A DNA stretch of 64,000 nt from Siphonodentalium dalli (taxonomy: Eukaryota; Mollusca; Scaphopoda; Gadilida; Siphonodentaliidae): positions 199,735,239 to 199,799,238 of the forward strand of contig CP136069.1 in assembly GCA_032622095.1 (NCBI GenBank), given 5' to 3'. Positions 989 to 62,160 of this stretch are shown here, in pieces; the stretch's first letter is position 1, and each line of letters opens with the position of its first letter. Under the pieces are notes generated by a model. The model was not told the DNA's origin. It ran no database searches and worked only from the letters and a program-made list of their open reading frames with translations. A program made the position numbers and the translations under genes.

Positions 989-1383
989 CCCTTTACCCAA
1001 CAAACCGGCCAAAACCGGCCAAATAAAGCTTCAACAGCCTAAAATATCTTCTGTCTGTCTCAATAAAACCATACAAATATGGATATCATTGGAACCGCCT
1101 CCTTGACCACATTGTGATAGTTACAGTTATACCCTGTGCCAATGCATTCTCTTATATATGCGAGTCGACCATAGGTCGCCTCGCATATATAAGAGAATGC
1201 ATTGGCCTAAAAAATTTTTTTTTTAACACTTTTTACCATTTTTTCTTACATTCTTTAACAATTTTATAATTTTTAATGTGTTAAGCCAATGCATTCTCTT
1301 ATATATGCGAGGCGACCTATGGTCGACTCGCATATATAAGAGAATGCATTGGCACAGGGCCGTTCTGTTGGGTAAAGGGTTAA
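989..1383. mobile_element. piggyBac-type MITE, copy 1
   Basis: The ends read CCCTTTACCCAACA on the left and TGTTGGGTAAAGGGTTAA on the right. A second copy at 50474-50865 lies in the opposite orientation and has the same ends and interior, with intact TTAA on both sides. TTAA duplication with CCC/GGG termini is the piggyBac hallmark. In this copy the left TTAA is lost and the right one remains (1380-1383). There is no transposase, so it is non-autonomous. The interior carries a nested hairpin pair (1132-1359). Confidence 0.8.
1132..1359. repeat. Nested hairpin-of-hairpins module, copy 1
   Basis: The module starts CCCTGTGCCAATGCATTCTC, folds on a centre near GTCGACCATAGGTCG, and runs back out as GAGAATGCATTGG. 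An AT-rich linker follows, and the same hairpin then appears inverted, ending GGCACAGGG. The whole is a palindrome built from two smaller palindromes. The same hairpin recurs around 46.3, 47.9, 48.2, 48.7, 50.5, 50.65, 56.8, 57.1 and 61.5 kb. Confidence 0.85.
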
Positions 1384-5732: not shown

Positions 5733-7526
5733 TTAGTTAAAGCGGTACCGCCACTTATTACTATATTGAATGCAGATATCACACAAAGCTTGAAGTCCTA
5801 CTCGAGTTAATGAGAATAATGCCATGTCATCAGCGTGAGCCAGACAAGCACAATTAATATTATTATACACACGAAGACCATAATTTGATGTTTCTAGTTG
5901 ATATATCAAATCGTCAATGAAAATATTGTATAAAAATGGCGAAACTGTGCCTCCTTGTCTGGCCCCATGGCGGACTTCGAACCATTCTGAAAATGTATCC
6001 TGAAAAGAAACAGAGCATTTGATGCCTGTTAACAGCATGTTGAAAATTCTTAGAGTTCTCCCCCTTATATGGCGATCATAGAGTTTTCGCAAGAGGCCAT
6101 TTATCCATACTGTGTCGAATGCTTTCCAAACATCCAAGAAGCACGTGCATAACTTGCTTTGCCTCTCGGATGTGTAGGAAATGCATTCAGTCACAGCGTA
6201 AGAGGACATTATGCAACTAACATTTCTTTGAAATCCATTTTGCATAGGGTGAACGCTTAGCGCCTTTGGGGAATTAGCTTGAAGTCTCCGAAGTATAACC
6301 TTTTCAAAGAGTTTGTACAAGTTTGGCAATAGTGTTATCGGCCTGTAGCTGTCAAATGAATTTCTGGGCTTACCATTTCCTTTGTACAGCGAGAAAATGA
6401 TACCACGTTTTGCGTTAATGGGCATATATTCGAGATCAATCATATTTGTGAAAAGATATGCAATGTATTCTACAAGTGAATCTCCACCGTGTATAATATG
6501 TTCATAGCTGACATTATCCCAACCGCTAGCTTTATTGTGAGGGAGTGTGGAAATAATTGAGACAATTTCGGAAGTAGTGACAGGATATGTGGTTAGCTTG
6601 TCAATATAGCTCAATTCACTATTTGCCAATTCTGATTCAATGAAGGCGTTAGTTGATTGGTAATGAATATCATCAAATGCTGCATCCGACAAAGGAGTAG
6701 AAAATATTGATTTATAGTATGTTGCCCACCCCTCTACGATCTCCAGTGGATCTCTGAGAGACCGACCTTCAAAAATGAAGGTTGAACAAGATGTTGATCC
6801 ATTTAATTTCCGTTTAGCGTTAAATAGTTTGTAAAAGGTTTCTTGATCTGATTTAACATTTTGATCAATTTCATCGTTAAAGGTTGATAAAAATTGTGAT
6901 GAGCATTTTCTATACTCACGTCTAAAATTACATTTGGCTTCTTTGTACGCTTTATATTGCTCATTCTCTGGATCTGCAGGTCGACCTACATTGATCCATT
7001 GATTTTTGTGAAATGACATAATATTGTGTAAACCACTGAGACGGGGATTCGAAAATTGTTTCAAGAAAGGTTTATTTTTTACCTTTGGGATATTGTTTTT
7101 TGCAGATTTATCAATGGATTCAACTATATTGTCATAAAACGAATCTAGATTTTCCCGATTGAGGGTAGTGTATCTTGGAAGGGAATGTGCTAAATCGTGT
7201 TGATAAGCTGAGACCTGATTTGGATCTGAAGTAAATCGCTTCCAATTGAATTTTGGTCTCTCAAAGAGATTATTTGTTCGCGATTTTAATGTAGACATGT
7301 TAAGGTTAACCTGAGCATAGATGGGACGGCGATTTGAAACATTCAAGGCATGATCATCTAAAACTGTGACAAACTGGGTATCAGGAAGATTAACTTCCGG
7401 AATGAGAATATGATCTATGACGGATCCATGCCCACCTGAAGCAGATACGAATGTGTTGTTAAGATTTTGACAAATCATGGGATCGGTCAATGCCATAAGT
7501 TCAAATGTTTTATAAAATGTTTTCAA
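5733..7526 (-). pseudogene. LINE A ORF2: end of endonuclease plus reverse transcriptase
   Basis: 597 residues, reached by frameshift from the endonuclease frame; the first codon is TTG, not a real start. Reverse transcriptase motifs in order are SYRPITLLPNLYKLFEKVIL (about 393-412), FLDVWKAFDTVW (463-474), GARQGGTVSPFLYNIFIDDL (521-540) and LAHADDMAL (562-570). The catalytic box is HADD, with the paired aspartates intact. The frame ends at TAA (5733-5735), but the same frame continues beyond as KKTFVVVFNETP, so this is a premature stop. Confidence 0.93.
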
Positions 7527-8086
7527 TGTGATAGATCTGAGACATTTTTGTACAGTGTGGCATTAAAATCTCCCATTACGATGATTTTGCCCAACCCTTT
7601 GTAGCTGTCGCATATGCTAGACAATTTGGTGAAATATTCCTTGAAGTATTCATCGGTGTAGTTAGTTGATGGCATATATATCTGAAAGATATAAATATAT
7701 TGGCAATCGGTAATTTGCAATTGGATTCCTAAGATTCTATCATCATGGATATCTAAAAGTGATATCTTGTTCCCCAGTGTCTTTTTATTGTAAAGAAATG
7801 CCACGCCCCCTTTGGGCCTACCCCTCTGAAATGGTAAACGTTGTGTAAAATCACACACCGCAAATGATCCGTAATCGCGATGTATATAGTCAAGAAAATT
7901 TACATTTACTTGTTTAAGCCAATGTTCACTTATACCGCATAGATCTACTCTCATTTTATCCAGTGTGTCTTGTAAATAACTTGCGCTCGACATAATGCCT
8001 GTTGCATTCCAAGCGAGTAATGAGAGCATGACAACAATAGAAACAACCGTTGACGGCTTAGCGGTGAATTGATTGGTGTGTGACAT
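7523..8086 (-). pseudogene. LINE A ORF2 N-terminus: AP-endonuclease domain
   Basis: ORF2 starts with ATG at 8086, overlapping the ORF1-side frame by 29 bp. The domain begins LLAWNATGI, continues with CGISEHWL (the glutamate of the endonuclease core) and reaches MGDFNATL (the GDFN catalytic motif). A one-base shift at about 7525 ends the frame. The rest of the domain, SVIDHILI and DDHALNVSN (the SDH-type motif), lies in the next frame at 7526. In LINEs this enzyme nicks target DNA for target-primed reverse transcription. Confidence 0.9.
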
Positions 8087-8561
8087 AGTTATCTGATAAT
8101 GCTTTGTGTGTACACATGAATGACCTAGTCCAGGTTCGACTGTCTGGTACGAGATGGACTTCGACTGCTGTGGTATCTGTCCCAGTGGTGATTATTCCAC
8201 CTGTCCCCCTGACGTTGTTGTTGTTGTTGTTGTTGTTTCTGTCATAGTCGAAGTCATAAACTTTGTCGGCGGAGAATTCGTTAGAAATGCCAAACGGGGT
8301 CCAATCTTTGCAAATAACACCATCCCACCAGAATTCATCGTTCATCACATATTCTGCTGAGTCCTCATCTGCATTTATTCGACAAGTTGCTTTGTTTTTA
8401 CGGGAGTTATACATCACTTTGACGACGGAGAATTTTATTCTATTTTTATCAAGTGATCTACAATGTCCGCTACACGAGTTTCGTACTCTAGATTGTCTAC
8501 AAAAAGTCGCCTGGGTACTTTGAGTTTCTATGATAGTGAATGTCATAATTAGTATTACCAC
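8058..8561 (-). pseudogene. Probable frameshifted C-terminal part of LINE A ORF1
   Basis: This open frame overlaps the end of ORF1 by 65 bp in another frame and ends 29 bp inside the start of ORF2. It encodes a compact segment with the motif NDEFWWDGVICKDW, resembling the FW-x-x-GV pattern I associate with C-terminal ORF1 domains of some invertebrate LINEs (from memory, not searched). A run of eight Asn codons (AAC)8 at about 8212-8238 follows. The simplest reading is that an indel near 8500-8560 split ORF1. A separate small ORF is the alternative. Confidence 0.5.
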
Positions 8562-10050
8562 TAGAATTGTTTTGATGGTTTGAAGACTGTTGATATCTGT
8601 TGTGTCTTGGATTTTGATAAAAACGTTGGTGATCTCGAGTATCAGTTATGTGATTAGAAGAGGCTTGTTGAATGTCACCTGAAACATCAGCCGATGCCAC
8701 GCTGATGCGATCGCTGTTTCGCGGTACACGTCCTGTATGGCGTGACACGTTTCTCGGACTTTTTTCTGGAGGATCTCTGGATGGATTATTTTGGTATTTC
8801 TGAGAATTAAAACCAGATGAAGATTTCAACGTCTCGGATATTTGGTGTCCTATTGTCTGCAATTTATCACCCATATTGTCAGATAAACTAGTAAAAGCTT
8901 TTTGCAAAATGTCAAAATATTTGGCACCCGTATCAGCACGAATCGATTCTGTTTTATCTGAATGCTTCAATTTAGTAGAAATGTCAGCGAAAGAATTTCT
9001 TAGAGCACTTATATTCATAGCATTTGTGTGAATATTATGATTGAATCCTTCAAGGTTCGAACATATCCGATGGATATCAGCACCAATTTTAGAAATTTCA
9101 TCACGTAGATGGGCCATTCCATTCATTCGTTCATCTTGAATTTTAGACATCTGATTCTCCATATTCGCTATACGAGTGTTCACGTCATTTTGGCTACTTT
9201 CAACATGGGTGACTCGTGTTTGTTCAATCGAGCGTTCTGTTTCCCACACATGGAGTTTATTTTCTATGGCATTTATTCGACTTTCCAGGCGAGCTATTGA
9301 CCCATTTAGTTCTGGCGTCAATTTTTCGAATTCAGTTGAGATGTGTTCATTCTTAGTTTGAAGAAGGAGGATGTCTTTTCTCAATTCCAACAGTGAAGAA
9401 GACACAGTCGGCAAATGCGATTCGGATGCTGAAGGTTGAGATTGATGAGTAGAAATGGCACGCGACGATTTACTCGCACTAATCATTTCAGAAATACTTT
9501 CCGGATCTTCATCGGCTAAATACATAAGTATACAGTATATATCATTACTCAACTTCTCAGCGATGCTGGGACCAGATGAAGATTTTGGTTGAACTCGTTT
9601 TTTTAGAGATGAATTGTGGTCAAATGAAAGCGAAAACGCTCGAGAGTTTCTAGCTTCACTAAATGCACTTTGTCTCAGGATTTCAAGAGTTTCCAGATTC
9701 CCAGATGATATAATAATTTGGATGAAATCCTCTTTTGGTGTTGAGTTAACAAATTTTAGAACATCTAGAATACACAGTGACATTATGGCATCATTATTAG
9801 CACTCATCTCGGCGATCAAAATCTGTAATGAGGTCGGTAAGTCAGTTGGATGAAGCATAAAACGATTCACAACTGGTTGTGTGGACGAAAATTCAGTTAT
9901 GGTACAGTTATTGACAGTTTGTTCTTCTATGGTTTGTATGGGCTGAGAAGTGGAAACCACAGAGGGGTCTGATACAAGTTCTTGTGTGTCCAGATCTGTG
10001 TAGATTTTTGGCGATTCACTCTCCATCATGTTTATTTGCAATGGGAGCAA
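8497..10050 (-). CDS. LINE A ORF1, coiled-coil nucleic-acid-binding protein
   Basis: 517 residues from ATG at 10050. The N-terminal part is Ser/Thr-rich. About residues 225-355 look like a long coiled coil with Leu/Ile/Met heptads, running from around LELRKDILLLQTKNEH through an IARLESRINAIENKLH block. A basic Asn/Arg/His-rich tail follows. By analogy with LINE ORF1 proteins it should trimerise through the coiled coil and coat the element RNA. I see no zinc knuckle in this frame. It ends at 8497, and the adjoining frame (8058-8561) continues in the same direction, so a frameshift has probably cut off the true C-terminus. Confidence 0.75.
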   Translation of the reverse strand: MLPLQINMMESESPKIYTDLDTQELVSDPSVVSTSQPIQTIEEQTVNNCTITEFSSTQPVVNRFMLHPTDLPTSLQILIAEMSANNDAIMSLCILDVLKFVNSTPKEDFIQIIISSGNLETLEILRQSAFSEARNSRAFSLSFDHNSSLKKRVQPKSSSGPSIAEKLSNDIYCILMYLADEDPESISEMISASKSSRAISTHQSQPSASESHLPTVSSSLLELRKDILLLQTKNEHISTEFEKLTPELNGSIARLESRINAIENKLHVWETERSIEQTRVTHVESSQNDVNTRIANMENQMSKIQDERMNGMAHLRDEISKIGADIHRICSNLEGFNHNIHTNAMNISALRNSFADISTKLKHSDKTESIRADTGAKYFDILQKAFTSLSDNMGDKLQTIGHQISETLKSSSGFNSQKYQNNPSRDPPEKSPRNVSRHTGRVPRNSDRISVASADVSGDIQQASSNHITDTRDHQRFYQNPRHNRYQQSSNHQNNSSGNTNYDIHYHRNSKYPGDFL

Positions 10051-10659
10051 TTGAATAAGTCAAAGCACACGAACACATATGGGCACTTCAACATGACGTA
10101 ATATGTTAGCCAGTCACAATACACTCAACACAGGCATGTTGACAAGCTTGATTGCTGACCTGGATTAGACACTGCGACAGTTCATTCCGTGTGTCCTGAG
10201 CGTGGCGACATGACACACAGCTGGGCAGGTTTCAAATGCCATTGGGCTGACTTTCGCTTTTGGACGACGTGGCGGACCTCTCAGAATGTAAACAAAGCCT
10301 TTGGGCCATACATGGATACCAATGGGAACTGTATCCAAAGTTGAATATAAATTCAACGAAAAGTCTCTCAAACTAAATAATCGATATGTAGCGAGAAGGC
10401 AAAATGAAGAGTAAATTCGGGCCATACTCATCGTCCATCCTTGCCATATTTGGAGAAGTTCAAGGCGCTACTTCATGAGAAATTACCGAAATTTTGTCAC
10501 CGTTTCTCCGACGTGTCCAATGCGTCCGCCATCTTGTACGACCTGTAGCTAGCGACAACAGTGTTCCGGCCATTTCCGGTTTCTCAATCTGTGAATGAGG
10601 AAAACGTGTCTTTTTGCAGAGCTCAAAAGTGATATAAATTCAATAAATTATTGGATAAA
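10051..10659 (-). promoter_or_regulatory. Possible LINE A 5' UTR / internal promoter region
   Basis: This is directly upstream of ORF1 on the minus strand, with no credible gene. Near 10525-10546 the LINE-sense strand reads AAGATGGCGGAC, which matches the known YY1 core; YY1 sites start transcription of mammalian L1. Whether this segment belongs to the LINE is not shown, so both the 5' boundary and the promoter role are guesses. Confidence 0.25.
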
Positions 10660-11253
10660 CTACTTACTTTTCTGTTTAAAATAGGTAAATGGACAATCGG
10701 AGTGTGCACCAGACAATTGTAATCGAGTTTCAGGTGAAATATTGTCAACTGTAAGTGAAATAAATTCCGTTTGATTTTTGTTGTGTGGCCACCATTTTGA
10801 TGTCGATAAATGACCCCATCGAACTTTGCTTTGATTTTGTAACAAGTTATACGTTAAAATTTTAGAATACAAATAAATGACAATGCACAATAAATATTGG
10901 CATTAATGTTGGACAAGGTTGAAATCCATGTTATTATTTTTTTGAAGGTAATAATCGTCTGAGAAAGTAGCCTATTTTCGTGCATAAAAAAGTTAAAGAA
11001 ATCATCAGTAACTTCCAGTAACTCACGTGCCATGTTATTGGTAATCCAATTGGCTATGGAATGCATATTTTTTTTATTTTTTTTGGCTAGAATTTTCATT
11101 GTGTTTTGACTTAGTAAATACCACTACCCAACAAGAATCAACGTTATTTACATTGTGCGGCAATGGTATGGAGGGAACAGTATGAGAAGTTCTACCAACA
11201 TGACTATGAATTAAGTTCTCTAGCCACAGTAGTATTCTTCAATGTGCATTAAC
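10660..11253. repeat. Left copy of a diverged direct repeat flanking the palindrome
   Basis: About 10700-11160 aligns in the same orientation, by eye, with about 25530-25980 on the far side of the palindrome. Shared blocks include ACCAGACAATTGTAAT, TAGCCTATTTTCRTGCA and TTGGTAATCCAATT, with many substitutions and indels between. About 90 bp of untyped sequence then leads to the palindrome, ending in ATTAAC at 11248-11253. No gene is seen. Confidence 0.65.
11248..11253. repeat. Target-site duplication of the palindrome, left copy
   Basis: ATTAAC directly abuts the first base of the palindrome. An identical hexamer in the same orientation abuts its last base at 25292-25297. Confidence 0.8.
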
Positions 11254-11390
11254 TGATGATACCCACCCCAGTTGGCCCCCAGATCAGGAACGATAACTCT
11301 ATCCGACCTATATGCAGTACATGGAGTTTGACCTATATTCTCCGCCCACGCGTCGGTCTATTTGTATACCGGTTGGGCATGTCCAAAAAA

Positions 11391-11690
11391 TTTCGAAAAC
11401 TTCAAAAATTTCAAAAACTTCAAAAACATCAAATATTTCAAAAAACGTCAAAAACGTCAAAAATGTCGAAAACTTCAAAATGTTAAAAAAATGCAAAAAG
11501 TTCAAAAAGTTCAAAAAGTTCAAAAAGTTCAAAAAGTTCAAAAATTTCAAAAATTTCAAAAACTTCAAAAATTTCAAAAAGTTCAAAAAGTTCAAAAACT
11601 TACAAAATTTCAAAAAGTTTAAAAACTTCAAAATACTCAAAAATTTCAAAAAACTTAAAAAACTTTTCAAAAAGAAACAAAAATGAAAAA
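11391..11690. repeat. 9-bp minisatellite near the left palindrome end
   Basis: About 30 units of a TTCAAAAAG-like 9-mer (also TTCAAAAAT and TTCAAAAAC), starting about 140 bp inside the terminus. Because 9 is a multiple of three, all frames stay open and give KFKKFKK-, KVQKVQ- and FLKFLK-type translations. These are artefacts of the repeat. The mirror copy is at 24855-25154. Confidence 0.9.
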
Positions 11691-12642
11691 CTTTAAAAAA
11701 AATTCATAAATTAAAAAAATATGAAAAACTTAAAAAACTTCAACTTTTTCTAAAATTCAAAAATAATTTAAAATTAACGGTCTTTTAATATATCTAACCC
11801 ACTGCCACTTCTGAGGGTTCCACACTACACCTGAGGGGATATTGAGTGGTCTACACACGTCTCCTAAACCATAGAATAAGATCCAGCCCATAAGAAACTC
11901 TGCCTCCTGCAATGTCTGTCATTCGAATCTGACGCAATCCCTACTTCTGGCGCAATGCCTGAGTCATTCGAATCTGGCGCAATCCCTACTTCCGGCGCAA
12001 CGCCTGAGTCATTGGAATCTGACGCAATCCCTCGTGAAACCTACCGGCTGACTCCACAACCATCGGCTAAGCGTTGTATCACATGCTTATTATTTGATCA
12101 TATCGTGGAAATTCAATGTTTTGTCATCACTCATGAGATATAACCCATATCCACTGAAAAAGGGTGGATATCCTCTATTTATTCATAATTTTTCTTTGTT
12201 ATCTTTTTTTTTATCCCTCTTTTTTATCTACCACTTCCTGTTTTTATTCGCTCTTCTTTTTCTTACAACTTCTAATCCCTCATAATCTTCGAATATCCAC
12301 TTTCATCTCCAAGTTTTTGAAAAAATTCCTTGTTTAGTAGCAGCACCTCCAGATGGGCTCTATAGAATTTGAACGAAGCATCCATCTTGGATATTACTCT
12401 TTCTATGACTAAATCCGTTAGCACGCTCTACAGATGTCATATAGGTAGCACGCTCTACAGATGTCATATAGGCCTCTTCACATCTTGTTTTCCGTAATTT
12501 ATTCATTAATAATCGCTCCATTGACTGTAACAAATTAAATTACCCCCTCCCCCTGTATTGAGAATACAGCCTTGATTATTAATATTTCCTCCTTTCACGG
12601 TGTGCATGTTCATTGGGACATCTTTGCTAATGTGAAGCCACA

Positions 12643-12664
12643 CCTATTATATATATATATATAT
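12643..12664. repeat. (TA)n microsatellite in left arm
   Basis: A run of alternating TA. The mirror run at 23881-23902 has the same length. A fast-mutating microsatellite with equal length in both arms argues that the arms are very young, actively homogenised, or an assembly copy. Confidence 0.85.
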
Positions 12665-14089
12665 ACAACTTTAAAAGCCCGCGAAAATATTACTCATATT
12701 ATAGACTTCCCTTTGAAGACCTTTGTATGTGACAATGATCCGTAATATTGTTTCTAAGTGACACTGGCCAGTGACACTGATATTACGGGTATGAACTAGC
12801 CAACTTCACATCGTAACAATAATAAAAGGGACACTTCATCTATATCAGTCTCAAAACGTGTTGGTACACATCTGTGTGGAAACTAAAACCAATCACTCTT
12901 CGTCCGTCATCCGTACGTCATTGTAATATAATTTTCTCAGAAACCACGGGATCCCTTTGGCTGAAATTTGGTCTCAACATGGGATCAGAAATTATCCATG
13001 GAAGACAACAGTGTCCGTGTGGGGAGAAGCTTCGTAGTGTTTCGCTGTCGCCATGGTGTTTGTTTGGATATAGGCATGGGTGGTGAGTGTGGTTCTCATA
13101 TGGTCTGAACTAGCCTTTACTGACTGAGGTCATTTAGTGCACATGTCATCACTTCACTGATAACCATTATATGGTCAAATCCCTACACTATCAAACGCAA
13201 TGTTTCAATAATGGGTTTTCTTAAAATGTTGACTAAATATTGGTTATATTATACGCATCAGCGATCCTTCTTAATAACGCTCTGTATATTTTCAAACGCA
13301 TTTCACTAGGGTTTGGAATAGCCACACAGGAAAGGAGAAACTGAGGTCCTAGGTAGGTCGACTGCATATAGCAGTATATATGGGGTACAGACATGGACAG
13401 CAATGGGTTCCTCGTGGCTTCTGGCCTACACATGACATATTAAAGTTAACCACACCCATCGGCGCGCCTTTAATGGGCTATGAAGCGCCATACAGGCTCG
13501 AATCATGGCCTTCGCCATGTGTTTCTATTTGAACCCACATTAGTAACTAAATAAAATCTTTCTCTCCAGGTTGTTTCACGCCATAACCTTGATTTGGAAA
13601 GCTTGAAGGGCTAATTAAGCTTCAATTTAAATCCCAACATTATTTGAAGAACGTATCTGGTTAAACATGTCCACCATAGTAAGCTCATTTAATTCAAAGA
13701 GCTTCACACATAGTCCCACTAGTAATGATGTGGCGTTATTTACTGCAGAAATGGTCATATATATAAAATACAATACAACACATTTTGGTCACATACCTTA
13801 AAGGTGCACGTCACTTTCGCAAGATATCTAACTGACCATGTATAGAGTGGAATTACATGTCGTGTATCAAATGTATAATCAGTTCCAGTATTTCGTCCAT
13901 AAGGCAGTTTTGGTTGTAACATCATTGTGTATGACGGTTCATTCATATGATACCTTAGCGGTTGCACACGATACTGTCTGTTGTATTTTATGTCTTATAT
14001 CATGTATATTAATTGCTCCATGGATGGTAGGAGTATGGCATTGGTGTCTGGTTCTTCGATGTATTCTAGTCATAGTTCATTCATATTAT

Positions 14090-15450
14090 TACTCTAAAAT
14101 CTCCATTAAATGGAGAAACTAAAGAGCCCATATTATGTAGACTAGTGTATAAATACTTACTTCATGCATTATTTTCATCAATTATATGTATTATAACTCC
14201 CATCAAGATAGGCTGTTATACAGAGGAAACAAAGCATGTACCAAGTGACAGTCTGTACCAAGTGACAGTCTCATGTCACGAAAGGCCTACTATGTGGACA
14301 CATGTTCTTATCAAAACGCTCTATTATGTAGGGGGTTATCAACCATTGGTCTGGAAAAGGCATACGAGCGGAACGCGTGTATACACATTTATTCGATGTA
14401 CTCTTTAATCTTCGATTTCTCTTTATTGTCGTTAATTTATAGCATTATTAGTAGGAATCTAAACTCGCCGTTATATTGAGAAAATAATGCGTCAATACCA
14501 GTCAATACTGCTTTATTGGCGGTAAATGAAATTATTGAATCATGTATCGCAGCTAAACAAGCGAGACAACTGATCACAACACAAAAATTAGTAATATTTC
14601 TGAAGCCTTGAGTGGTTTGTAATACACAGTGTAAATTTTCATTATTGCTACCATTTAAGGAAACATGCCCCCGATAGGGCTACTATGCGAACACATGTCT
14701 ATATTAATTTCACATATTCCTTACCGTTCATTCATATATACTCCAAGCTCTCTGTTAATACAGAGGCATCAAAACATTGGTCTGGAAAAGACCTACTATG
14801 TGGATGCGTGTATACATATTTACTTGATGTATTCTTTAATCGTTCATTTCTCTTTATTATCGTTCATTTATAGCATTATTAGAAGAAATTTAGTCTAAAA
14901 TCTCCATTATATGGAGACAATAAAGAGCCCATATGGTGTAGACTAATGCATAAATACTTCATGTATTCTTTTCACCAATTATATGTATTGTACATCCTAT
15001 ACATTTAGTCTGTTATACAGAGGAAACAAAGCATGTACTACGTGGCAGTTTCATATGACGATAAGACCTACTATGTGAACACATGTGCATATTAATTTCA
15101 CATATTCTTCTCAAAACGCTCTATTTTATACGGGGGTATCAAACATTGGTCTGGAAAAGGCCTGCTATGTGGACGCGTGTATACATATTGACTTCATATA
15201 TGCATTCATAGTGCATTTATCTTAATTGTCGTTCATTTAATAGCATTATTAGTAGAAATATAGTCTAAAACCGTCGGTATATGGATAATATATAGCGTCA
15301 ATACTGTTTTATTGTTGGTAACTCAAATTATTGCATCATGTATCGCAACTAAACAAGCGAGACAACTCATAAATTCTTAATAGTTCTGATGTCTATGGCA
15401 GTTCACAGAGTGTATATTTTCATTGTTGTTACCATTTTAGTGCATAAATT
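14090..15450. repeat. ~800-bp tandem duplication within left arm
   Basis: The block beginning CTAAAATCTCCATTAAATGG (14095) recurs as CTAAAATCTCCATTATATGG (14895). The block TAAACAAGCGAGACAACT near 14555 recurs near 15350. Within each copy a ~400-bp subunit with a TGGTCTGGAAAAG motif is repeated. The copies are diverged from one another although the two arms are almost identical. The mirror copy is at about 21095-22455. Confidence 0.75.
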
Positions 15451-16639
15451 ACTGATTTCTGTGTAAGAACGCTGGTCTCCATTGTTGTTATGATTGTGCC
15501 TATAACTGTCCATATTCTTAAAGCAAGTACGGTACCTCTATGTGATATGATGTATAAACATTTCCATTTTCACAGGTAAATCACGTATAAACGCTCTTTA
15601 ATGTATAGTTAAACTGAGTTTTCACATGCAGGGCTATGTCTTTGTGGACTATATACGTGGTATACTTCAGTATATACACGACGTGAATGTGTTCTAAGTA
15701 TGCGTATCTGATGTATGTATACGTCCGTGTTTCTTAAAGCAAATCCAATACATATTAGTGCGTTATATTATGATGTACATTAAGTGCCCTTTTCACTGTT
15801 AAATCAAGTAAAAAAGCCCTCTACTATAGTTAACTATTCAGTTCCACATACGCTATAAGCTCTATGGTGGTCCGGTGTGTCTTATCAATATGCCATTATA
15901 TGCACGAATGTTATGTGTTCAAATATGTGGGTTATGATGTATACTTTAATGTTAAAGTATATAAGCACTCTTTAAGATATGCATATGCAGAATGTTGCCT
16001 CTTTACACTGACAGAAAAAAAAAAGGAATATAAAATTTTGAATACTACTCTTCATAAAACGTTAGAAAACCATAATCTAACAACTAATATCGAAGAACAA
16101 TGTAATTACTTGATAAGCATTGTAAATATTTAGTCTGTTATTAAATAAAATGGAAATATTTCGTCTATTTGAAATACAGTTGGAAGCAACAATCAAGTAT
16201 TTAAATGAAATTTGGACCAAAATCTTATAATTTGAGAAAACGTATATAATTTCTATCGAAGTCTTATAATAAAGGAAGGCTTTGTGCGAATCCATTCGGT
16301 CTAATGTGTGAATGTGTTCATCATCGCAAATATAATGATGCAGAAATGAATATTTCCTAGAAAAATGTTAACATAGCTTGTATTTAACCGAAATAATATA
16401 GCATTTGAGTTAAAATGTTTCATATTAGGACCATAACGAACCAATGCATAAAAATACAATATTTTGTTTTTCATTCTCGATCAAAATAATGCAGGGTTGT
16501 CAATTATCAACAAAAAACAAATACTTTGAAACAAAAACGATGACATAAGAACGAATATACAAGAGCTAGTGTGAAAATAACCCTCACATTTATAAAAAAA
16601 AAACAATAAAAATTCAGTTTTCGAGTAAGTCCTTCATAA

Positions 16640-17880
16640 TTATTGAATGTTTTCGTCTATGTTGGATCAAATTTGACACAAAAATCAATTAGCTCACTAA
16701 CAGTTCGCGCAATATCTCATATTTTGAGAAAACGTTTGCAATTTTAGACAACAATATTGCTAGTGAAGGTGAATATTTCATCCTGGAACTCATGAAATAT
16801 GATAAAAATAGATGTAAAGACACTTCACGAGACCTCATATCTTTGAGTTATGAACATAAAGTCATCTCATAGTGCCAATGTACCCCATAATTTGGTCAGG
16901 AGAAATATGTATTTCATATTTGACCCTTCATCTATGGTAAAAAATGAATTAAGGGACATGGGAGTGGTGTCCTAGACATTAACCTAGAGCATAAATTGAC
17001 TCAATTTTGCAATTTTAGGCAACATTCTTGCCAGGGAAAGTGTATATTTCATGTTGGAACTCATCAAATGTGATAAACATGCATCAAAAGGCACTTACTG
17101 AGCTCTGATGACTTTGAGTTATGACAACAACGGCATCTCATACTAGATTGTAAGCCATAATTTGGTCAGGAAAAGTGTAAATTTCATATTTTATCCTACA
17201 TGTGTTTTAACAATCAATGTAATTACACCCCATCGGTCGCCTAGACACAGCGTAAATGTTCTCAAGTTTTCAACTGTAGGCCACAATGTCGGCGGTGAAG
17301 GTAAACATTTCATGTTGGAACCCATGAAATGTGATAAAATGGATAAAAAGACACTTCATGAGTACTTATGACTGAGTTATGAACATAAAGGGACCTCATA
17401 GTGTATTGTAGGTCATAATTTGGTCAGGAAAATTGTAAATTTCATGTCTTAAGCTCCATGTGTTTTTAAAATATATTTAATTACAGCCATTGGGTCCCTA
17501 GAGATCAATCCACAGTCCATATGTAGTCCATATGCAATTTTAGGGAACAGTATTGCTAGCGAAGGTGAACATTACATGCTGGAACTCATGAAATATGATA
17601 AAAATAGATGAAAAGACACTTTCTGAGGCCTTGGTCAGGAGAAATGTGTATTGTATTTTGACCCTTGATGCGTGGTAGCAATCAATGAAATTACACCCCA
17701 TGGTATCCTCAGATATGAAGCAACATCATAAATGCACTCAGTTTTGGCAATTTAGAAAACATTGTTGATAGGGAAGTTGTACATGTCATGTTGGAACTGG
17801 TGAAATGTGATAATAATTGATCAAAAGACACTCGATGAGCCCTGATGGGTTTCAATTATGGTCATAAAGGCATCTGATAG
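16640..17880. repeat. ~265-bp diverged tandem repeat in left arm
   Basis: A unit carrying GCAATTTTAGRCAACA, then a TTTCATGTTGGAACTCATG-like block and ATAATTTGGTCAGGA, repeats at about 16738, 17007, 17265, 17531 and 17750. Spacings run from about 220 to 270 bp. The mirror copy is at 18665-19905. No coding pattern is seen. Confidence 0.8.
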
Positions 17881-18129
17881 TGTCATTATACAACGGGGAA
17901 ATTTGTGAAGCGCTAACAAAGCGTATCTACAAGGTGTTATACGATCCAAAATGATCCTGATATAAGAAATGCAATCTAGATCATACTCAGTATCTTCGTA
18001 TCTACTGAATATATCGTTATTCGATGGTGTTCCCGACATACCTCCGTCTTTACTTTTCTTATGCCTTTGTAAATTGTAGTTCGTCGATAATATATTTCTG
18101 CACAAATGGCACCCGTGTATTGTCTCGAA
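17821..18129 (-). CDS. Uncharacterised small ORF, left member of the divergent pair
   Basis: This is the mirror image of 18416-18724, running leftwards away from the palindrome centre. The two encode the same protein; a synonymous CCT/CCG difference at 17932 is the only nucleotide change I found in the frame. See the right-hand copy for the description. Confidence 0.3.
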   Translation of the reverse strand, partial: FETIHGCHLCRNILSTNYNLQRHKKSKDGGMSGTPSNNDIFSRYEDTEYDLDCISYIRIILDRITPCRYALLALHKFPRCIMTLSDAFMTIIETHQGSSSVF

Positions 18130-18251
18130 TCATGGGAAGAACTATCGTCCTTATACCAGCGAAAAGATGAGCGAATATGGTGTGGTATTATAAACGCGCC
18201 GCCTTCGTACCTCTATTTATCGTTTAGAGTTATTGTTCTTAGATAAAAAAT

Positions 18252-18293
18252 TGGCGCGCGTGCGGCCCCCTCACCCCCACTGCCGCCGCGCCT
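18252..18293. other. 42-bp GC-rich spacer at the palindrome centre
   Basis: This is the only unpaired segment of the palindrome: GC-rich, with GGCGCGCG, GGCCCCCTCACCCCC and CCGCCGCGCC. It is flanked on both sides by an AT-rich mirrored AGATAAAAAA/TTTTTTATCT. Six bases (18253-18258) still pair inside it. It does not resemble the repeat-rich hairpin adapter used in PacBio libraries, as I remember it. Confidence 0.8.
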
Positions 18294-18415
18294 ATTTTTT
18301 ATCTAAGAACAATAACTCTAAACGATAAATAGAGGTACGAACGCGGCGCGTTTATAATACCACACCATATTCGCTCATCTTTTCGCTGGTATAAGGACGA
18401 TAGTTCTTCCCATGA

Positions 18416-18724
18416 TTCGAGACAATACACGGGTGCCATTTGTGCAGAAATATATTATCGACGAACTACAATTTACAAAGGCATAAGAAAAGTAAAGACG
18501 GAGGTATGTCGGGAACACCATCGAATAACGATATATTCAGTAGATACGAAGATACTGAGTATGATCTAGATTGCATTTCTTATATCAGGATCATTTTGGA
18601 TCGTATAACACCGTGTAGATACGCTTTGTTAGCGCTTCACAAATTTCCCCGTTGTATAATGACACTATCAGATGCCTTTATGACCATAATTGAAACCCAT
18701 CAGGGCTCATCGAGTGTCTTTTGA
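18416..18724 (+). CDS. Uncharacterised small ORF, right member of the divergent pair
   Basis: An open frame of about 102 codons from the last upstream stop, ending TGA at 18722-18724. It has no ATG before 18506 (MSGTPSNND...). The N-terminal part contains CHLCRNILSTNYNLQRHKK, which has the C-x2-C-x12-H spacing of a C2H2 zinc finger, but the second histidine is missing. A segment with RYEDTEYDLDCISYI follows. A TTTATAA box lies at 18349-18356, about 65 bp upstream of the frame. It could be the end of a spliced exon, a decayed finger gene, or chance. It is the only protein-like signal in the palindrome. Confidence 0.3.
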   Translation, partial: FETIHGCHLCRNILSTNYNLQRHKKSKDGGMSGTPSNNDIFSRYEDTEYDLDCISYIRIILDRITPCRYALLALHKFPRCIMTLSDAFMTIIETHQGSSSVF

Positions 18725-19905
18725 TCAATTATTATCACATTTCACCAGTTCCAACATGACATGTACAACTTCCCTATCAACAATGTTTTCTAAATTGCCA
18801 AAACTGAGTGCATTTATGATGTTGCTTCATATCTGAGGATACCATGGGGTGTAATTTCATTGATTGCTACCACGCATCAAGGGTCAAAATACAATACACA
18901 TTTCTCCTGACCAAGGCCTCAGAAAGTGTCTTTTCATCTATTTTTATCATATTTCATGAGTTCCAGCATGTAATGTTCACCTTCGCTAGCAATACTGTTC
19001 CCTAAAATTGCATATGGACTACATATGGACTGTGGATTGATCTCTAGGGACCCAATGGCTGTAATTAAATATATTTTAAAAACACATGGAGCTTAAGACA
19101 TGAAATTTACAATTTTCCTGACCAAATTATGACCTACAATACACTATGAGGTCCCTTTATGTTCATAACTCAGTCATAAGTACTCATGAAGTGTCTTTTT
19201 ATCCATTTTATCACATTTCATGGGTTCCAACATGAAATGTTTACCTTCACCGCCGACATTGTGGCCTACAGTTGAAAACTTGAGAACATTTACGCTGTGT
19301 CTAGGCGACCGATGGGGTGTAATTACATTGATTGTTAAAACACATGTAGGATAAAATATGAAATTTACACTTTTCCTGACCAAATTATGGCTTACAATCT
19401 AGTATGAGATGCCGTTGTTGTCATAACTCAAAGTCATCAGAGCTCAGTAAGTGCCTTTTGATGCATGTTTATCACATTTGATGAGTTCCAACATGAAATA
19501 TACACTTTCCCTGGCAAGAATGTTGCCTAAAATTGCAAAATTGAGTCAATTTATGCTCTAGGTTAATGTCTAGGACACCACTCCCATGTCCCTTAATTCA
19601 TTTTTTACCATAGATGAAGGGTCAAATATGAAATACATATTTCTCCTGACCAAATTATGGGGTACATTGGCACTATGAGATGACTTTATGTTCATAACTC
19701 AAAGATATGAGGTCTCGTGAAGTGTCTTTACATCTATTTTTATCATATTTCATGAGTTCCAGGATGAAATATTCACCTTCACTAGCAATATTGTTGTCTA
19801 AAATTGCAAACGTTTTCTCAAAATATGAGATATTGCGCGAACTGTTAGTGAGCTAATTGATTTTTGTGTCAAATTTGATCCAACATAGACGAAAACATTC
19901 AATAA
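18665..19905. repeat. ~265-bp diverged tandem repeat in right arm
   Basis: Reverse-complement copy of 16640-17880. Confidence 0.8.
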
Positions 19906-21094
19906 TTATGAAGGACTTACTCGAAAACTGAATTTTTATTGTTTTTTTTTTATAAATGTGAGGGTTATTTTCACACTAGCTCTTGTATATTCGTTCTTAT
20001 GTCATCGTTTTTGTTTCAAAGTATTTGTTTTTTGTTGATAATTGACAACCCTGCATTATTTTGATCGAGAATGAAAAACAAAATATTGTATTTTTATGCA
20101 TTGGTTCGTTATGGTCCTAATATGAAACATTTTAACTCAAATGCTATATTATTTCGGTTAAATACAAGCTATGTTAACATTTTTCTAGGAAATATTCATT
20201 TCTGCATCATTATATTTGCGATGATGAACACATTCACACATTAGACCGAATGGATTCGCACAAAGCCTTCCTTTATTATAAGACTTCGATAGAAATTATA
20301 TACGTTTTCTCAAATTATAAGATTTTGGTCCAAATTTCATTTAAATACTTGATTGTTGCTTCCAACTGTATTTCAAATAGACGAAATATTTCCATTTTAT
20401 TTAATAACAGACTAAATATTTACAATGCTTATCAAGTAATTACATTGTTCTTCGATATTAGTTGTTAGATTATGGTTTTCTAACGTTTTATGAAGAGTAG
20501 TATTCAAAATTTTATATTCCTTTTTTTTTTCTGTCAGTGTAAAGAGGCAACATTCTGCATATGCATATCTTAAAGAGTGCTTATATACTTTAACATTAAA
20601 GTATACATCATAACCCACATATTTGAACACATAACATTCGTGCATATAATGGCATATTGATAAGACACACCGGACCACCATAGAGCTTATAGCGTATGTG
20701 GAACTGAATAGTTAACTATAGTAGAGGGCTTTTTTACTTGATTTAACAGTGAAAAGGGCACTTAATGTACATCATAATATAACGCACTAATATGTATTGG
20801 ATTTGCTTTAAGAAACACGGACGTATACATACATCAGATACGCATACTTAGAACACATTCACGTCGTGTATATACTGAAGTATACCACGTATATAGTCCA
20901 CAAAGACATAGCCCTGCATGTGAAAACTCAGTTTAACTATACATTAAAGAGCGTTTATACGTGATTTACCTGTGAAAATGGAAATGTTTATACATCATAT
21001 CACATAGAGGTACCGTACTTGCTTTAAGAATATGGACAGTTATAGGCACAATCATAACAACAATGGAGACCAGCGTTCTTACACAGAAATCAGT

Positions 21095-22455
21095 AATTTA
21101 TGCACTAAAATGGTAACAACAATGAAAATATACACTCTGTGAACTGCCATAGACATCAGAACTATTAAGAATTTATGAGTTGTCTCGCTTGTTTAGTTGC
21201 GATACATGATGCAATAATTTGAGTTACCAACAATAAAACAGTATTGACGCTATATATTATCCATATACCGACGGTTTTAGACTATATTTCTACTAATAAT
21301 GCTATTAAATGAACGACAATTAAGATAAATGCACTATGAATGCATATATGAAGTCAATATGTATACACGCGTCCACATAGCAGGCCTTTTCCAGACCAAT
21401 GTTTGATACCCCCGTATAAAATAGAGCGTTTTGAGAAGAATATGTGAAATTAATATGCACATGTGTTCACATAGTAGGTCTTATCGTCATATGAAACTGC
21501 CACGTAGTACATGCCTTGTTTCCTCTGTATAACAGACTAAATGTATAGGATGTACAATACATATAATTGGTGAAAAGAATACATGAAGTATTTATGCATC
21601 AGTCTACACCATATGGGCTCTTTATTGTCTCCATATAATGGAGATTTTAGACTAAATTTCTTCTAATAATGCTATAAATGAACGATAATAAAGAGAAATG
21701 AACGATTAAAGAATACATCAAGTAAATATGTATACACGCATCCACATAGTAGGTCTTTTCCAGACCAATGTTTTGATGCCTCTGTATTAACAGAGAGCTT
21801 GGAGTATATATGAATGAACGGTAAGGAATATGTGAAATTAATATAGACATGTGTTCGCATAGTAGCCCTATCGGGGGCATGTTTCCTTAAATGGTAGCAA
21901 TAATGAAAATTTACACTGTGTATTACAAACCACTCAAGGCTTCAGAAATATTACTAATTTTTGTGTTGTGATCAGTTGTCTCGCTTGTTTAGCTGCGATA
22001 CATGATTCAATAATTTCATTTACCGCCAATAAAGCAGTATTGACTGGTATTGACGCATTATTTTCTCAATATAACGGCGAGTTTAGATTCCTACTAATAA
22101 TGCTATAAATTAACGACAATAAAGAGAAATCGAAGATTAAAGAGTACATCGAATAAATGTGTATACACGCGTTCCGCTCGTATGCCTTTTCCAGACCAAT
22201 GGTTGATAACCCCCTACATAATAGAGCGTTTTGATAAGAACATGTGTCCACATAGTAGGCCTTTCGTGACATGAGACTGTCACTTGGTACAGACTGTCAC
22301 TTGGTACATGCTTTGTTTCCTCTGTATAACAGCCTATCTTGATGGGAGTTATAATACATATAATTGATGAAAATAATGCATGAAGTAAGTATTTATACAC
22401 TAGTCTACATAATATGGGCTCTTTAGTTTCTCCATTTAATGGAGATTTTAGAGTA
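21095..22455. repeat. ~800-bp tandem duplication within right arm
   Basis: Reverse-complement copy of 14090-15450. Confidence 0.75.
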
Positions 22456-24854
22456 ATAATATGAATGAACTATGACTAGAATACATCGAAGAACCAGACA
22501 CCAATGCCATACTCCTACCATCCATGGAGCAATTAATATACATGATATAAGACATAAAATACAACAGACAGTATCGTGTGCAACCGCTAAGGTATCATAT
22601 GAATGAACCGTCATACACAATGATGTTACAACCAAAACTGCCTTATGGACGAAATACTGGAACTGATTATACATTTGATACACGACATGTAATTCCACTC
22701 TATACATGGTCAGTTAGATATCTTGCGAAAGTGACGTGCACCTTTAAGGTATGTGACCAAAATGTGTTGTATTGTATTTTATATATATGACCATTTCTGC
22801 AGTAAATAACGCCACATCATTACTAGTGGGACTATGTGTGAAGCTCTTTGAATTAAATGAGCTTACTATGGTGGACATGTTTAACCAGATACGTTCTTCA
22901 AATAATGTTGGGATTTAAATTGAAGCTTAATTAGCCCTTCAAGCTTTCCAAATCAAGGTTATGGCGTGAAACAACCTGGAGAGAAAGATTTTATTTAGTT
23001 ACTAATGTGGGTTCAAATAGAAACACATGGCGAAGGCCATGATTCGAGCCTGTATGGCGCTTCATAGCCCATTAAAGGCGCGCCGATGGGTGTGGTTAAC
23101 TTTAATATGTCATGTGTAGGCCAGAAGCCACGAGGAACCCATTGCTGTCCATGTCTGTACCCCATATATACTGCTATATGCAGTCGACCTACCTAGGACC
23201 TCAGTTTCTCCTTTCCTGTGTGGCTATTCCAAACCCTAGTGAAATGCGTTTGAAAATATACAGAGCGTTATTAAGAAGGATCGCTGATGCGTATAATATA
23301 ACCAATATTTAGTCAACATTTTAAGAAAACCCATTATTGAAACATTGCGTTTGATAGTGTAGGGATTTGACCATATAATGGTTATCAGTGAAGTGATGAC
23401 ATGTGCACTAAATGACCTCAGTCAGTAAAGGCTAGTTCAGACCATATGAGAACCACACTCACCACCCATGCCTATATCCAAACAAACACCATGGCGACAG
23501 CGAAACACTACGAAGCTTCTCCCCACACGGACACTGTTGTCTTCCATGGATAATTTCTGATCCCATGTTGAGACCAAATTTCAGCCAAAGGGATCCCGTG
23601 GTTTCTGAGAAAATTATATTACAATGACGTACGGATGACGGACGAAGAGTGATTGGTTTTAGTTTCCACACAGATGTGTACCAACACGTTTTGAGACTGA
23701 TATAGATGAAGTGTCCCTTTTATTATTGTTACGATGTGAAGTTGGCTAGTTCATACCCGTAATATCAGTGTCACTGGCCAGTGTCACTTAGAAACAATAT
23801 TACGGATCATTGTCACATACAAAGGTCTTCAAAGGGAAGTCTATAATATGAGTAATATTTTCGCGGGCTTTTAAAGTTGTATATATATATATATATAATA
23901 GGTGTGGCTTCACATTAGCAAAGATGTCCCAATGAACATGCACACCGTGAAAGGAGGAAATATTAATAATCAAGGCTGTATTCTCAATACAGGGGGAGGG
24001 GGTAATTTAATTTGTTACAGTCAATGGAGCGATTATTAATGAATAAATTACGGAAAACAAGATGTGAAGAGGCCTATATGACATCTGTAGAGCGTGCTAC
24101 CTATATGACATCTGTAGAGCGTGCTAACGGATTTAGTCATAGAAAGAGTAATATCCAAGATGGATGCTTCGTTCAAATTCTATAGAGCCCATCTGGAGGT
24201 GCTGCTACTAAACAAGGAATTTTTTCAAAAACTTGGAGATGAAAGTGGATATTCGAAGATTATGAGGGATTAGAAGTTGTAAGAAAAAGAAGAGCGAATA
24301 AAAACAGGAAGTGGTAGATAAAAAAGAGGGATAAAAAAAAAGATAACAAAGAAAAATTATGAATAAATAGAGGATATCCACCCTTTTTCAGTGGATATGG
24401 GTTATATCTCATGAGTGATGACAAAACATTGAATTTCCACGATATGATCAAATAATAAGCATGTGATACAACGCTTAGCCGATGGTTGTGGAGTCAGCCG
24501 GTAGGTTTCACGAGGGATTGCGTCAGATTCCAATGACTCAGGCGTTGCGCCGGAAGTAGGGATTGCGCCAGATTCGAATGACTCAGGCATTGCGCCAGAA
24601 GTAGGGATTGCGTCAGATTCGAATGACAGACATTGCAGGAGGCAGAGTTTCTTATGGGCTGGATCTTATTCTATGGTTTAGGAGACGTGTGTAGACCACT
24701 CAATATCCCCTCAGGTGTAGTGTGGAACCCTCAGAAGTGGCAGTGGGTTAGATATATTAAAAGACCGTTAATTTTAAATTATTTTTGAATTTTAGAAAAA
24801 GTTGAAGTTTTTTAAGTTTTTCATATTTTTTTAATTTATGAATTTTTTTTAAAG

Positions 24855-25154
24855 TTTTTCATTTTTGTTTCTTTTTGAAAAGTTTTTTAAGTTTTTTGAA
24901 ATTTTTGAGTATTTTGAAGTTTTTAAACTTTTTGAAATTTTGTAAGTTTTTGAACTTTTTGAACTTTTTGAAATTTTTGAAGTTTTTGAAATTTTTGAAA
25001 TTTTTGAACTTTTTGAACTTTTTGAACTTTTTGAACTTTTTGAACTTTTTGCATTTTTTTAACATTTTGAAGTTTTCGACATTTTTGACGTTTTTGACGT
25101 TTTTTGAAATATTTGATGTTTTTGAAGTTTTTGAAATTTTTGAAGTTTTCGAAA
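24855..25154. repeat. 9-bp minisatellite near the right palindrome end
   Basis: Reverse-complement copy of 11391-11690, identical in the stretches I compared. Confidence 0.9.
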
Positions 25155-25291
25155 TTTTTTGGACATGCCCAACCGGTATACAAATAGACCGACGCGTGGG
25201 CGGAGAATATAGGTCAAACTCCATGTACTGCATATAGGTCGGATAGAGTTATCGTTCCTGATCTGGGGGCCAACTGGGGTGGGTATCATCA

Positions 25292-25297
25292 ATTAAC
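25292..25297. repeat. Target-site duplication of the palindrome, right copy
   Basis: ATTAAC, identical to 11248-11253. It marks the exact right boundary. Confidence 0.8.
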
Positions 25298-46069: not shown

Positions 46070-46925
46070 CGTTTCATCATCACATCACGTGGTTTCGAGG
46101 TTAGTGAGTACCACGCATTCAAAATGGCCGAGGCGAGCGCAAACGTCCTAATCATAATATACGAGGAACTGACACAAAACATAGCATTTTGACTGTTACG
46201 AGCATATGCTAGTTTATTTTTAAAACAAGTTGATACCTTATTTGTATGGAAATACTCAGTAGTTTTCTTTAACCCTTTGAGTGCCAGGTCGATTTTTGTA
46301 TCAACCCATATACCCTGTGCCAATGCATTCTCTTATATATGCGAGTCGACCATAGGTCGCCTCGCATATATAAGAGAATGCATTGGCCTAACAATTTTTT
46401 TTACAATTTTTTACAATTTTAATAATTTATTCTTATATACTTTAACAGACTTATATTGTAGGTTTAGGGCCGATGAGATCGGCCCCTGGCACTCAAAGGG
46501 TTATCAAAGTTGCAAGTTGGAGGTTCGTGGAATACACAAGTCCATGCATCTAGTATATGCTAGTTCATGTTAAAAACAAGTTGATACCTCATTTGTTCCC
46601 AAATACTCAGTAGTTTCCTATAACATTCTGACTAAAGTTGCCAGTCGCAGGTTCGTGAAATACAACAGTCCATACATCTAGGAGAATCCTTCGGCTGACA
46701 ACTTTGGTCAGAATGTTAGAGCAAGCAACTTCGAGTTTGAACACAAATTAGGTATCAGCTTGTTTGAAAAATAGTTTAGCATATGTTCGTAGCTGCCAAA
46801 AATACTTTGTAATATGTAATATCCTATATATAATTGATCACCTTTCCTCGTTTCTGGTCGCGTTTGCGATCACATCGGCCATTTTTGAATGCGTGATACT
46901 CATCAACTCGAAAACGTGATTCCCC
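46070..46925. repeat. Composite inverted repeat holding a piggyBac-type MITE
   Basis: The outer blocks GGTTAGTGAGTACCACGCATTC...ATGGCCGAGG (about 46095-46130) and CGGCCATTTTTGAATGCGTG (about 46880-46900) are inverted. A CATATGCTAGTT...AACAAGTTGATACC block occurs at 46203 and 46553 directly and at about 46715-46785 inverted. The MITE at 46273-46500 sits within it. Confidence 0.65.
46273..46500. mobile_element. piggyBac-type MITE, termini CCCTTTGAGTGCCAGG
   Basis: A 228-bp element with CCCTTTGAGTGCCAGG at the left and CCTGGCACTCAAAGGG at the right. TTAA lies at 46269-46272 on the left; the right copy has mutated to TTAT (46501-46504). Its termini differ from the 989/50474 family, yet it contains the same nested hairpin (about 46311-46388). 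Confidence 0.85.
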
Positions 46926-48294: not shown

Positions 48295-48529
48295 ATGTCA
48301 TAGAAAGACGTATTGAAATTCATACAAAACTATAACGCCGAACACAATGTACGGACCCCGTGTCAAATTCATCTGAATTCTGGAATCGGAAACGGAATGT
48401 CCGAAAATATATATTGCGTTATCTTAACATGAAACTATTAAAAAAAACCCACAAAACTTCACACTGCTTTCTCACCGTTTTAGTCATCACAATAAATAGT
48501 ACCATAAAGGTTACAGAGCGAAGACCATT

Positions 48530-48736: not shown

Positions 48737-48749
48737 AAAGCGAAGACCA

Positions 48750-58329: not shown

Positions 58330-58394
58330 GTTTAAATACAAGACATCAAATTGTCGCTTGTTGCTCAACCCATATCAGTCCGAATAAAAAAAAA

Positions 58395-62101: not shown

Positions 62102-62160
62102 TATGAAACAACCATTGTTGAGCCATCTAACTGATATTGGAGAATAAATACCAGCAACTA

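Follow-up and report, generated by a model that had tools for sequence, protein, structure and literature searches.

The 64,000-nucleotide stretch analyzed here (the window) comes from the scaphopod Siphonodentalium dalli (assembly GCA_032622095.1, contig CP136069.1, positions 199,735,239 to 199,799,238) and contains a palindromic mobile element that is likely to be a non-autonomous satellite of a Polinton/Maverick transposon in the same genome. The element proper, at window positions 11254-25291, is a near-perfect palindrome in which position x pairs with 36545-x. Its two arms, each of 6,998 bp, differ by four mismatches (14945, 15030, 17932, and 18203), the outer ends of the element are TGATGAT...ATCATCA, and a direct repeat of exactly 6 bp (ATTAAC) adjoins both ends. 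Apart from the mismatches, these features, together with a 42-bp spacer, had been listed in a first-pass annotation of the window and were confirmed by re-computation. An inverted-repeat search set the arms slightly wider, at 11249-18258 and 18287-25296 with 28 nt between them, because pairing also extends into the GC stem of the center and into TTAA in the duplication. The arm length and the finding of the element's 20-bp end at 123 places in the genome exclude a chance origin of the palindrome.

The arms are AT-rich and carry diverged internal repeats. When 21 of the 26 listed stop-to-stop open reading frames (ORFs) of the arm were compared to Pfam, none scored above the cutoff; two matches fell below it, to a C2H2 finger (E 0.058) and to Colicin_V (E 0.048). 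The 102-aa frame with the finger-like stretch is probably not a gene. The longest arm ORF outside a 9-bp repeat array is 110 aa, a length equalled in 78 of 200 first-order random sequences. An Rfam scan of the window gave no match, and a tRNA scan of the window found none.

The first 20 bp of the element were searched in the whole assembly (2.23 Gb, 9 contigs) and accounted for all 123 places (61 + 62), with none for the reversed control pattern. Among the 100 of these places from which pairs were drawn, 78 formed 39 facing pairs, with spans of 0.4-7.9 kb (25 pairs), 13,984-14,440 bp (13 pairs), and 26.4 kb (one pair). Target duplications of 6 bp were found for 12 of 12 pairs, 7 further elements, the window copy, and four of four copies located by their center (24 of 24, all different). 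Six copies in all were located by center rather than by ends, and in two of these, one end or none lay within the stretch examined. When pairs found through an integrase gene were included (five of six, see below), 29 of the 30 elements for which both ends were available had a perfect 6-bp duplication, comprising 28 different hexamers. A TTAA-type duplication, considered for the TTAA within ATTAAC, was ruled out as other copies have unrelated hexamers, and the TTAA here looks like a coincidence. The claim of the first-pass annotation that the palindrome was inserted whole, in a single event, is therefore supported, with many copies sharing their ends and having different duplications. Near-perfect palindromes can arise in long-read libraries, and an assembly or library fold-back artifact had been named as the alternative. 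This was rejected on genome-wide grounds as extremely unlikely, given the perfect duplications in 29 of 30 elements, the same non-adapter center in 12 copies at different loci, and the copy-specific mismatches between arms. The window palindrome is a real, recently inserted mobile element belonging to a large family of palindromes, and the four arm differences in 6,986 bp indicate that this copy is young.

Nine of the 25 short pairs were examined whole, and five of these (L054, L056, L057, L058, and L059) were inverted repeats over most of their length. When the terminal 1.4 kb (0.7 kb for one) of 12 pairs was compared, 8 showed 0-17 mismatches. A 16-bp piece of the end was also searched in viral contigs, where 12 stretches were retrieved and judged by inspection to be chance matches.

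Of the 13 pairs spanning about 14 kb, two were non-palindromic, at C5:32332518-32346947 (14,430 bp) and C2:232544501-232558895 (14,395 bp). The C5 copy, hereafter the helper, was examined in three neighboring pieces (including L072 and L073), and the C2 copy was examined at its center, which was 99.1% like the C5 copy. The helper has terminal inverted repeats (TIRs) of 122 bp that are 100% alike and a duplication of ATCTTT on both sides. Its left part encodes an rve integrase (PF00665, 5.8e-11) with a chromo-domain match below the cutoff. Family-B polymerase domains (PF03175, best 1.1e-12) were scored in ORFs of the 26.4-kb element, which align to the helper at 97-98%, there in several pieces. 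An A32-type ATPase match (Pox_A32, E 0.013) lay below the Pfam cutoff, and L072:6355-6708 was protease-like by eye and without Pfam match. The helper also contains a TATA-binding-protein (TBP) domain at L072:1011-1544 (+) (Pfam 2.8e-14) and a PC4 domain at L073:3425-3943 (+), scored at 3.5e-13 in an identical ORF (L052:1760-2278) of the 26.4-kb element.

The capsid candidate of the helper is a 426-aa ORF (L072:3180-4457) without Pfam domain, for which 17 homologs were found at 26-39% identity. A structure model was obtained for one homolog, P0001, rather than for the helper's own protein (mean predicted local distance difference test 82.4, predicted template modeling score 0.84). Of 213 structure matches at E 0.001 or better, the best solved ones include the major capsid proteins of Sputnik, PBCV-1, and mavirus (E ~1e-14, template modeling score 0.55-0.64 by model length). 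Through this modeled homolog, the candidate is assigned as a double jelly-roll major capsid protein. A PDB sequence search with the capsid-candidate alignment gave no match, and searches of viral contigs confirmed no relatives of this candidate or of the ATPase carried by some palindromes.

Polinton genes are described as including polymerase, integrase, ATPase, and protease (PMC4028283), and vertebrate Mavericks as having TIRs, 6-bp duplications, and a constrained size (PMC8097293). Since the integrase, family-B polymerase, TIRs, and 6-bp duplication match such descriptions and a double jelly-roll capsid candidate is present, the helper is a Polinton/Maverick (compare also PMC6431247), with a repeated end motif as a further likeness. 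It differs from vertebrate Polintons in its TGATGAT end, theirs being reported as of AG type, and it is 14.4 kb long with TBP and PC4 genes. Its integrase had 113 genome matches, 48 of them at 99 or 100% identity and 46 of those without a stop, and these near-identical copies suggest recent activity of the Polinton.

The palindromes were linked to the helper by several data. The ends and duplication length of the window element are those of the helper, as for a non-autonomous derivative. Positions 1-345 of the window arm were 88.9% identical (361 columns) to the integrase-side end of the helper beyond the TIR (L072:349-708). For 10 other palindromic or short elements, the integrase side of the helper was likewise matched better than the PC4 side, a comparison that rests mostly on the A-rich array and was made on low-complexity sequence with the filter off. 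Arrays similar to the A-rich 9-bp array of the window were found in the integrase-side end of the helper and in other palindromes. The 26.4-kb element (L051-L053, C4:3807542-3833959) has the PC4-side end at both of its ends, followed by 3.3 kb of window-type arm (98.5%) and then helper polymerase sequence, and satellite and helper sequences have evidently recombined in it. It has the duplication GTGTAC and also carries OTU-like (by eye) and PC4 ORFs. The sizes also agree, as the 11 palindromes of 13,984-14,440 bp compare with 14,395 and 14,430 bp for the two helper-type copies; palindrome length corresponds to helper length, as packaging by size would give.

The center of the window palindrome folds as a GC-rich mini-hairpin of two short stems with a bulge on one side, in the order GGCGCG, a 3-nt bulge (CGT), GCGGC, a C-rich 15-nt loop, GCCGC, and CGCGCC. 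The same center was observed in 12 of 12 palindromic copies of about 14 kb (the window, four read in halves, and seven by center), with the loop shortened in C1_257. It was also observed between arms unrelated to those of the window, namely centrally in C7_98 (7.9 kb), within C1_246 (5.3 kb), and in the middle of an inner palindrome of C1_27. A 16-bp piece of the hairpin was found at 241 genome places, with none for the reversed control. The number of palindromes is smaller than 241, since an interrupted hairpin counts twice, and variants of the 16-bp piece lie outside the count. From 100 of these places, 20 sites were picked by hand (the first ten of C1 and ten others, with L086 and L091 in or beside known copies). 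The sequence was symmetric around the hairpin at 14 sites (12 at 0.94 or above), one-sided at 4, and interrupted at 2, and by inspection every site had, to one side or both, an arm of class A (11 sites), B (1), or D (8). The hairpin is part of these elements and marks their point of symmetry. At the two interrupted sites (L084 and L088), the break is in the hairpin loop, and the L088 insert resembles by eye a short repeat at window positions 1123-1380. L054 and L058 have another spacer of 396 bp in common.

The relation of the two arms was deduced from five copies with full arms, counting only alignment columns that are gap-free across all 10 arms. Mismatches within a copy numbered 4, 2, 3, 3, and 21 in about 6,990, compared to 112-192 (1.7-2.8%) between the left arms of different copies. 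Both arms of every copy agreed at 297 of the variable gap-free sites and disagreed at 31, and at 30 of these 31, one arm had the state of all other arms while the state of the other was private. The five pairs of full arms were each sister with support of 1.000. For the inner 640 bp of 11 copies (without C1_269, the motif of which differs, and the two non-palindromic copies), the two arms of a copy differed by 0-3 and those of different copies by 0-21 (mean 11.7 for the closest arms in each pair), some copies being nearly identical to each other. It follows that the template shared by a copy's two arms is more recent than the common origin of most copies. The two arms of one copy evidently change together, and multiplication of the element seems to restore the identity of its halves. 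By inspection, the stem base in class-A copies was AATT/AATT, TA/TA, or mixed, and in the five mixed cases (window, C1_269, C5_253, L083, and L093) AATT was on the bulge side.

Gene conversion accounts for arm identity in Y-chromosome palindromes, and chromosomal conversion is the main rival for arm identity alone. Under such an explanation, these would be Polinton-derived elements with very long inverted repeats and ordinary double-stranded movement, the arms of which are kept identical on the chromosome. The 297 sites with copy-specific changes in both arms are also expected from this process, and stem-base variants present on both sides occur in either direction (by inspection), as conversion would allow. 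However, the odd state was private to one arm at 30 of the 31 disagreement sites, C5_253 retains 21 differences of this private type over its whole arm, the symmetry of the center is only 0.82-0.94 in L080, L091, and L093, and the conserved hairpin is left unexplained. This explanation was therefore considered rather unlikely as an account of the whole.

Further data came from the helper's own end. The integrase match list contained at least eight inverted pairs a few kilobases apart. In C3:293.38 Mb and C6:118.37 Mb, the strand turns at 7-bp overlaps, with 254 or 494 bp between the joined points. In C7:20.59 Mb, the first middle stretch runs through and the turn lies in the next stretch, with an overlap of 2 bp and a distance of 2,045 bp. 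These three palindromes have their fold-back junction in the parent sequence, as defective snapback genomes do. Two other pairs (C1:25.83 Mb and C6:8.21 Mb) were partly symmetric (0.87 and 0.73) with sequence without match to the helper copy, and the middle stretches of three more (C3:112.4, C8:115.4, and C2:120.8 Mb) run through helper sequence. Matching duplications were present in five of the six integrase pairs with both ends. Such varied junctions are consistent with defective genomes that arise sporadically; the hairpin palindromes, by contrast, form families that have inherited a single center.

Foldback and Galileo of Drosophila have a P-type transposase and other duplication lengths. 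A cut-and-paste transposon of this foldback type, moved by an unseen transposase of its own and independent of the Polinton, was weighed because long arms with internal repeats resemble the very long, internally repetitive inverted repeats of these elements (PMC3573991). Foldback and Galileo are not known to have Polinton ends, unlike the window family, and no transposase was found in the 21 ORFs of the window arm compared to Pfam. Since the ends, terminal array, and duplication length are common with the Polinton, palindromes also form from the end of the Polinton itself, and one element combines satellite with helper sequence, such a transposon was deemed highly improbable.

The satellite explanation was therefore preferred, given the helper-type integrase-side ends, the 6-bp duplication, the shared hairpin, the concerted arms, and the fold-backs of the helper. 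The palindromes are probably copied and inserted by the Polinton of the same genome. We propose that during protein-primed strand-displacement replication, a strand would fold back where it meets a short inverted match or a hairpin and would copy itself, giving the same origin and the same integrase site at both ends. The end repeats of vertebrate Mavericks are described as allowing jumping-back in protein-primed replication (PMC8097293). The helper polymerase would replicate the palindromic molecules in trans and its integrase would insert them. As a half-element has one Polinton end only, only the head-to-head dimer could insert. The arms would become identical while the molecule is single-stranded and folded, either through mismatch repair or because one arm is copied anew from the other, and divergence would follow insertion. 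The shared hairpin is suggested to be a cis-element favoring folding, which may have allowed defective genomes of sporadic origin to become stable satellite lineages that are amplified.

A more specific reading that joins these data is possible and is offered tentatively. The GC-rich hairpin of about 40 bp with its flanking A/T runs might be an encoded replication element (a fold-back telomere) that turns unrelated cargo into an obligately palindromic satellite of a protein-primed transposon. Each cycle through a one-arm hairpin would rewrite both arms from one template, only the dimer would integrate, and satellites bearing an ATPase may compete for packaging as phage satellites do.

Several observations weigh against the satellite explanation. 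The hairpin was absent from L054, L057, and L058 and from the helper copy examined, so that some palindromes can do without it. Of the class-A arm in the window, the terminal 345 bp match the helper copy and the inner 6.6 kb do not. Not all members are palindromic: of the nine short elements examined whole, L055 was off-center, and L060-L062 have a unique middle framed by inverted ends of just 0.5-1.2 kb. Four of the 12 pairs compared had 129-292 mismatches between their terminal 1.4-kb stretches, and the integrase pair at C3:293.38 Mb has no target duplication. The tree of the inner 640 bp did not place the two arms of C6_127, nor those of C3_116, as sisters, and two pairs had support below 0.5. 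C3_116 (L065) and L077 carry different class-A lineage markers at their two arm tips, which look as if two class-A lineages had come together at this point. Gene conversion on the chromosome is another process that could equalize the arms, and the steps of replication, particle formation, and integration were deduced from the sequence of one assembly.

Other members of the family carry genes. C1_95, C5_242, and C7_98 contain a zinc-finger/A32 ATPase ORF of 574-594 codons (Pfam 5.5e-6, L054), with a mirror copy in the opposite arm. In C7_98 neither copy is interrupted; in C1_95 and in C5_242 one of the two is. The ratio of nonsynonymous to synonymous differences (pN/pS) between C7_98 and the other two was 0.16-0.23 (Fisher p 3e-4 and 0.003). 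It was 0.93 on 5 changes for C1_95 versus C5_242 and 0.37-0.99 against the shortened ORF of C1_213. This palindrome-borne packaging-ATPase gene appears to be under purifying selection. Among the 120 of 185 homologs listed, the named animal ones were from bivalves and the others from bacterial metagenome-assembled genomes, which points to a bivalve or other mollusc as the likely host. A Bcl-2-like ORF was present in the 3.3-kb element C2_3 (L061:1260-1874, +; Pfam 3.4e-14, BCL-XL 2.3e-8), and nearly the same ORF was found at L013:2336-2950 (+). Palindromes resembling class D carry a mirrored ORF of 183-225 aa (L056:1278-1826, -; L057:2715-3389, -) with no Pfam family above the cutoff. A single PDB sequence match of the 225-aa ORF of L057 (E 0.029) was taken as chance.

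The first-pass annotation had mentioned Polintons for their 6-bp duplications, and the ends proved to be those of a Polinton in the same genome. Its suggestion of a giant foldback element or an integrated head-to-head dimer pointed in the right direction, the hairpin-dimer step itself being proposed here from sequence. Its statement that there is no recognisable enzyme holds for the window copy and fails for the system, where the helper encodes enzymes and other palindromes carry the packaging-ATPase gene. It had also named no described family; the superfamily is known, and it is the palindromic form that was not found described. A search of mainly open-access literature, with repeat databases outside its scope, retrieved no description of palindromic, foldback, defective, satellite, or non-autonomous Polintons or of such forms of their relatives, and a term search of PMC11071308 gave no hit.

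The palindromes share ends and a 6-bp duplication with their Polinton/Maverick helper and differ from it in being mirror images without integrase or polymerase, many with the shared central hairpin. The yeast linear killer plasmid pGKL1 gives rise to hairpin plasmids and inverted dimers, and adenovirus to symmetric defective genomes. These are palindromes from one end of a protein-primed linear DNA, as is proposed for the satellites, but they are laboratory or episomal forms, whereas those described here are integrated families with a conserved center. Snapback subgenomes of adeno-associated virus (AAV) are defective fold-back genomes dependent on a complete relative and have been proposed as satellites (PMC8235507). 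AAV is a parvovirus replicating via terminal hairpins, while here the complete relative is a Polinton and the palindromes are germline families. Inverted duplications of fold-back type in human DNA, which have been attributed to a strand that turns back on itself (PMC3907307), are chromosomal rearrangements rather than mobile elements. Polintons and AAV snapback genomes are known; what appears new is a Polinton derivative that is both palindromic and non-autonomous and that often has a conserved hairpin at its center.

If correct, the satellite explanation would give the Polintons a class of satellites that are palindromic and inherited, in a group for which a virus-like life in animals has been inferred far more than observed. 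Fold-back junctions would record strand switching by a protein-primed polymerase, and the family would be a natural model for the copying, equalizing, and inserting of long palindromes in an animal germline. If arms are made identical before insertion, their differences would date insertions as pairs of long terminal repeats date retroviruses. Because the near-identical integrase copies suggest recent activity, the system may be testable in living animals.

Table 1. Parts of the palindromic element, in window coordinates
Feature	Position	Strand	Basis
Left target-site duplication, ATTAAC	11248..11253	.	6-bp duplications in 29/30 both-ended elements
Left arm, class A, without recognisable gene	11254..18251	+	Palindrome pairing, Pfam, ORF length
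Terminal part common with helper integrase-side end, beyond the 122-bp TIR; starts with TGATGAT repeat	11254..11598	+	88.9% identity
A-rich array, ~39 copies of a 9-bp unit	11386..11743	+	Low complexity
141-nt repeat, three diverged copies within arm	14299..15239	+	Repeat search
99-nt repeat, five diverged copies within arm	16737..17843	+	Repeat search
102-aa open frame, weak C2H2-finger-like stretch, probably not a gene; mirror at 18416-18724	17821..18129	-	Pfam zf-C2H2_4, E 0.058, below cutoff
Central hairpin module, 42 bp, non-palindromic center	18252..18293	+	Common to palindromes with unrelated arms
Right arm, inverted copy of left arm	18294..25291	-	Palindrome pairing
Helper-type terminal part, mirrored	24947..25291	-	Pairing and helper match
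Right target-site duplication, ATTAAC	25292..25297	.	Direct repeat adjoining the palindrome

The palindrome is flanked in the window by two regions of LINE-type retrotransposons with reverse transcriptases (5736-10059, -; 58287-60110, +) and by a rhodopsin-family receptor gene (54003-55346, -), genes that mark the host as an animal. A short dispersed repeat with an inverted-repeat core, present in at least 10 copies, was found at 1123-1380, 46304-48756, 50485-50743, 56826-57223, and 61551-61661. A cluster of short self-complementary units of the TTTGCGCTTAAGCGCAAA type, in direct and inverted repeats, occupies 62035-63920.

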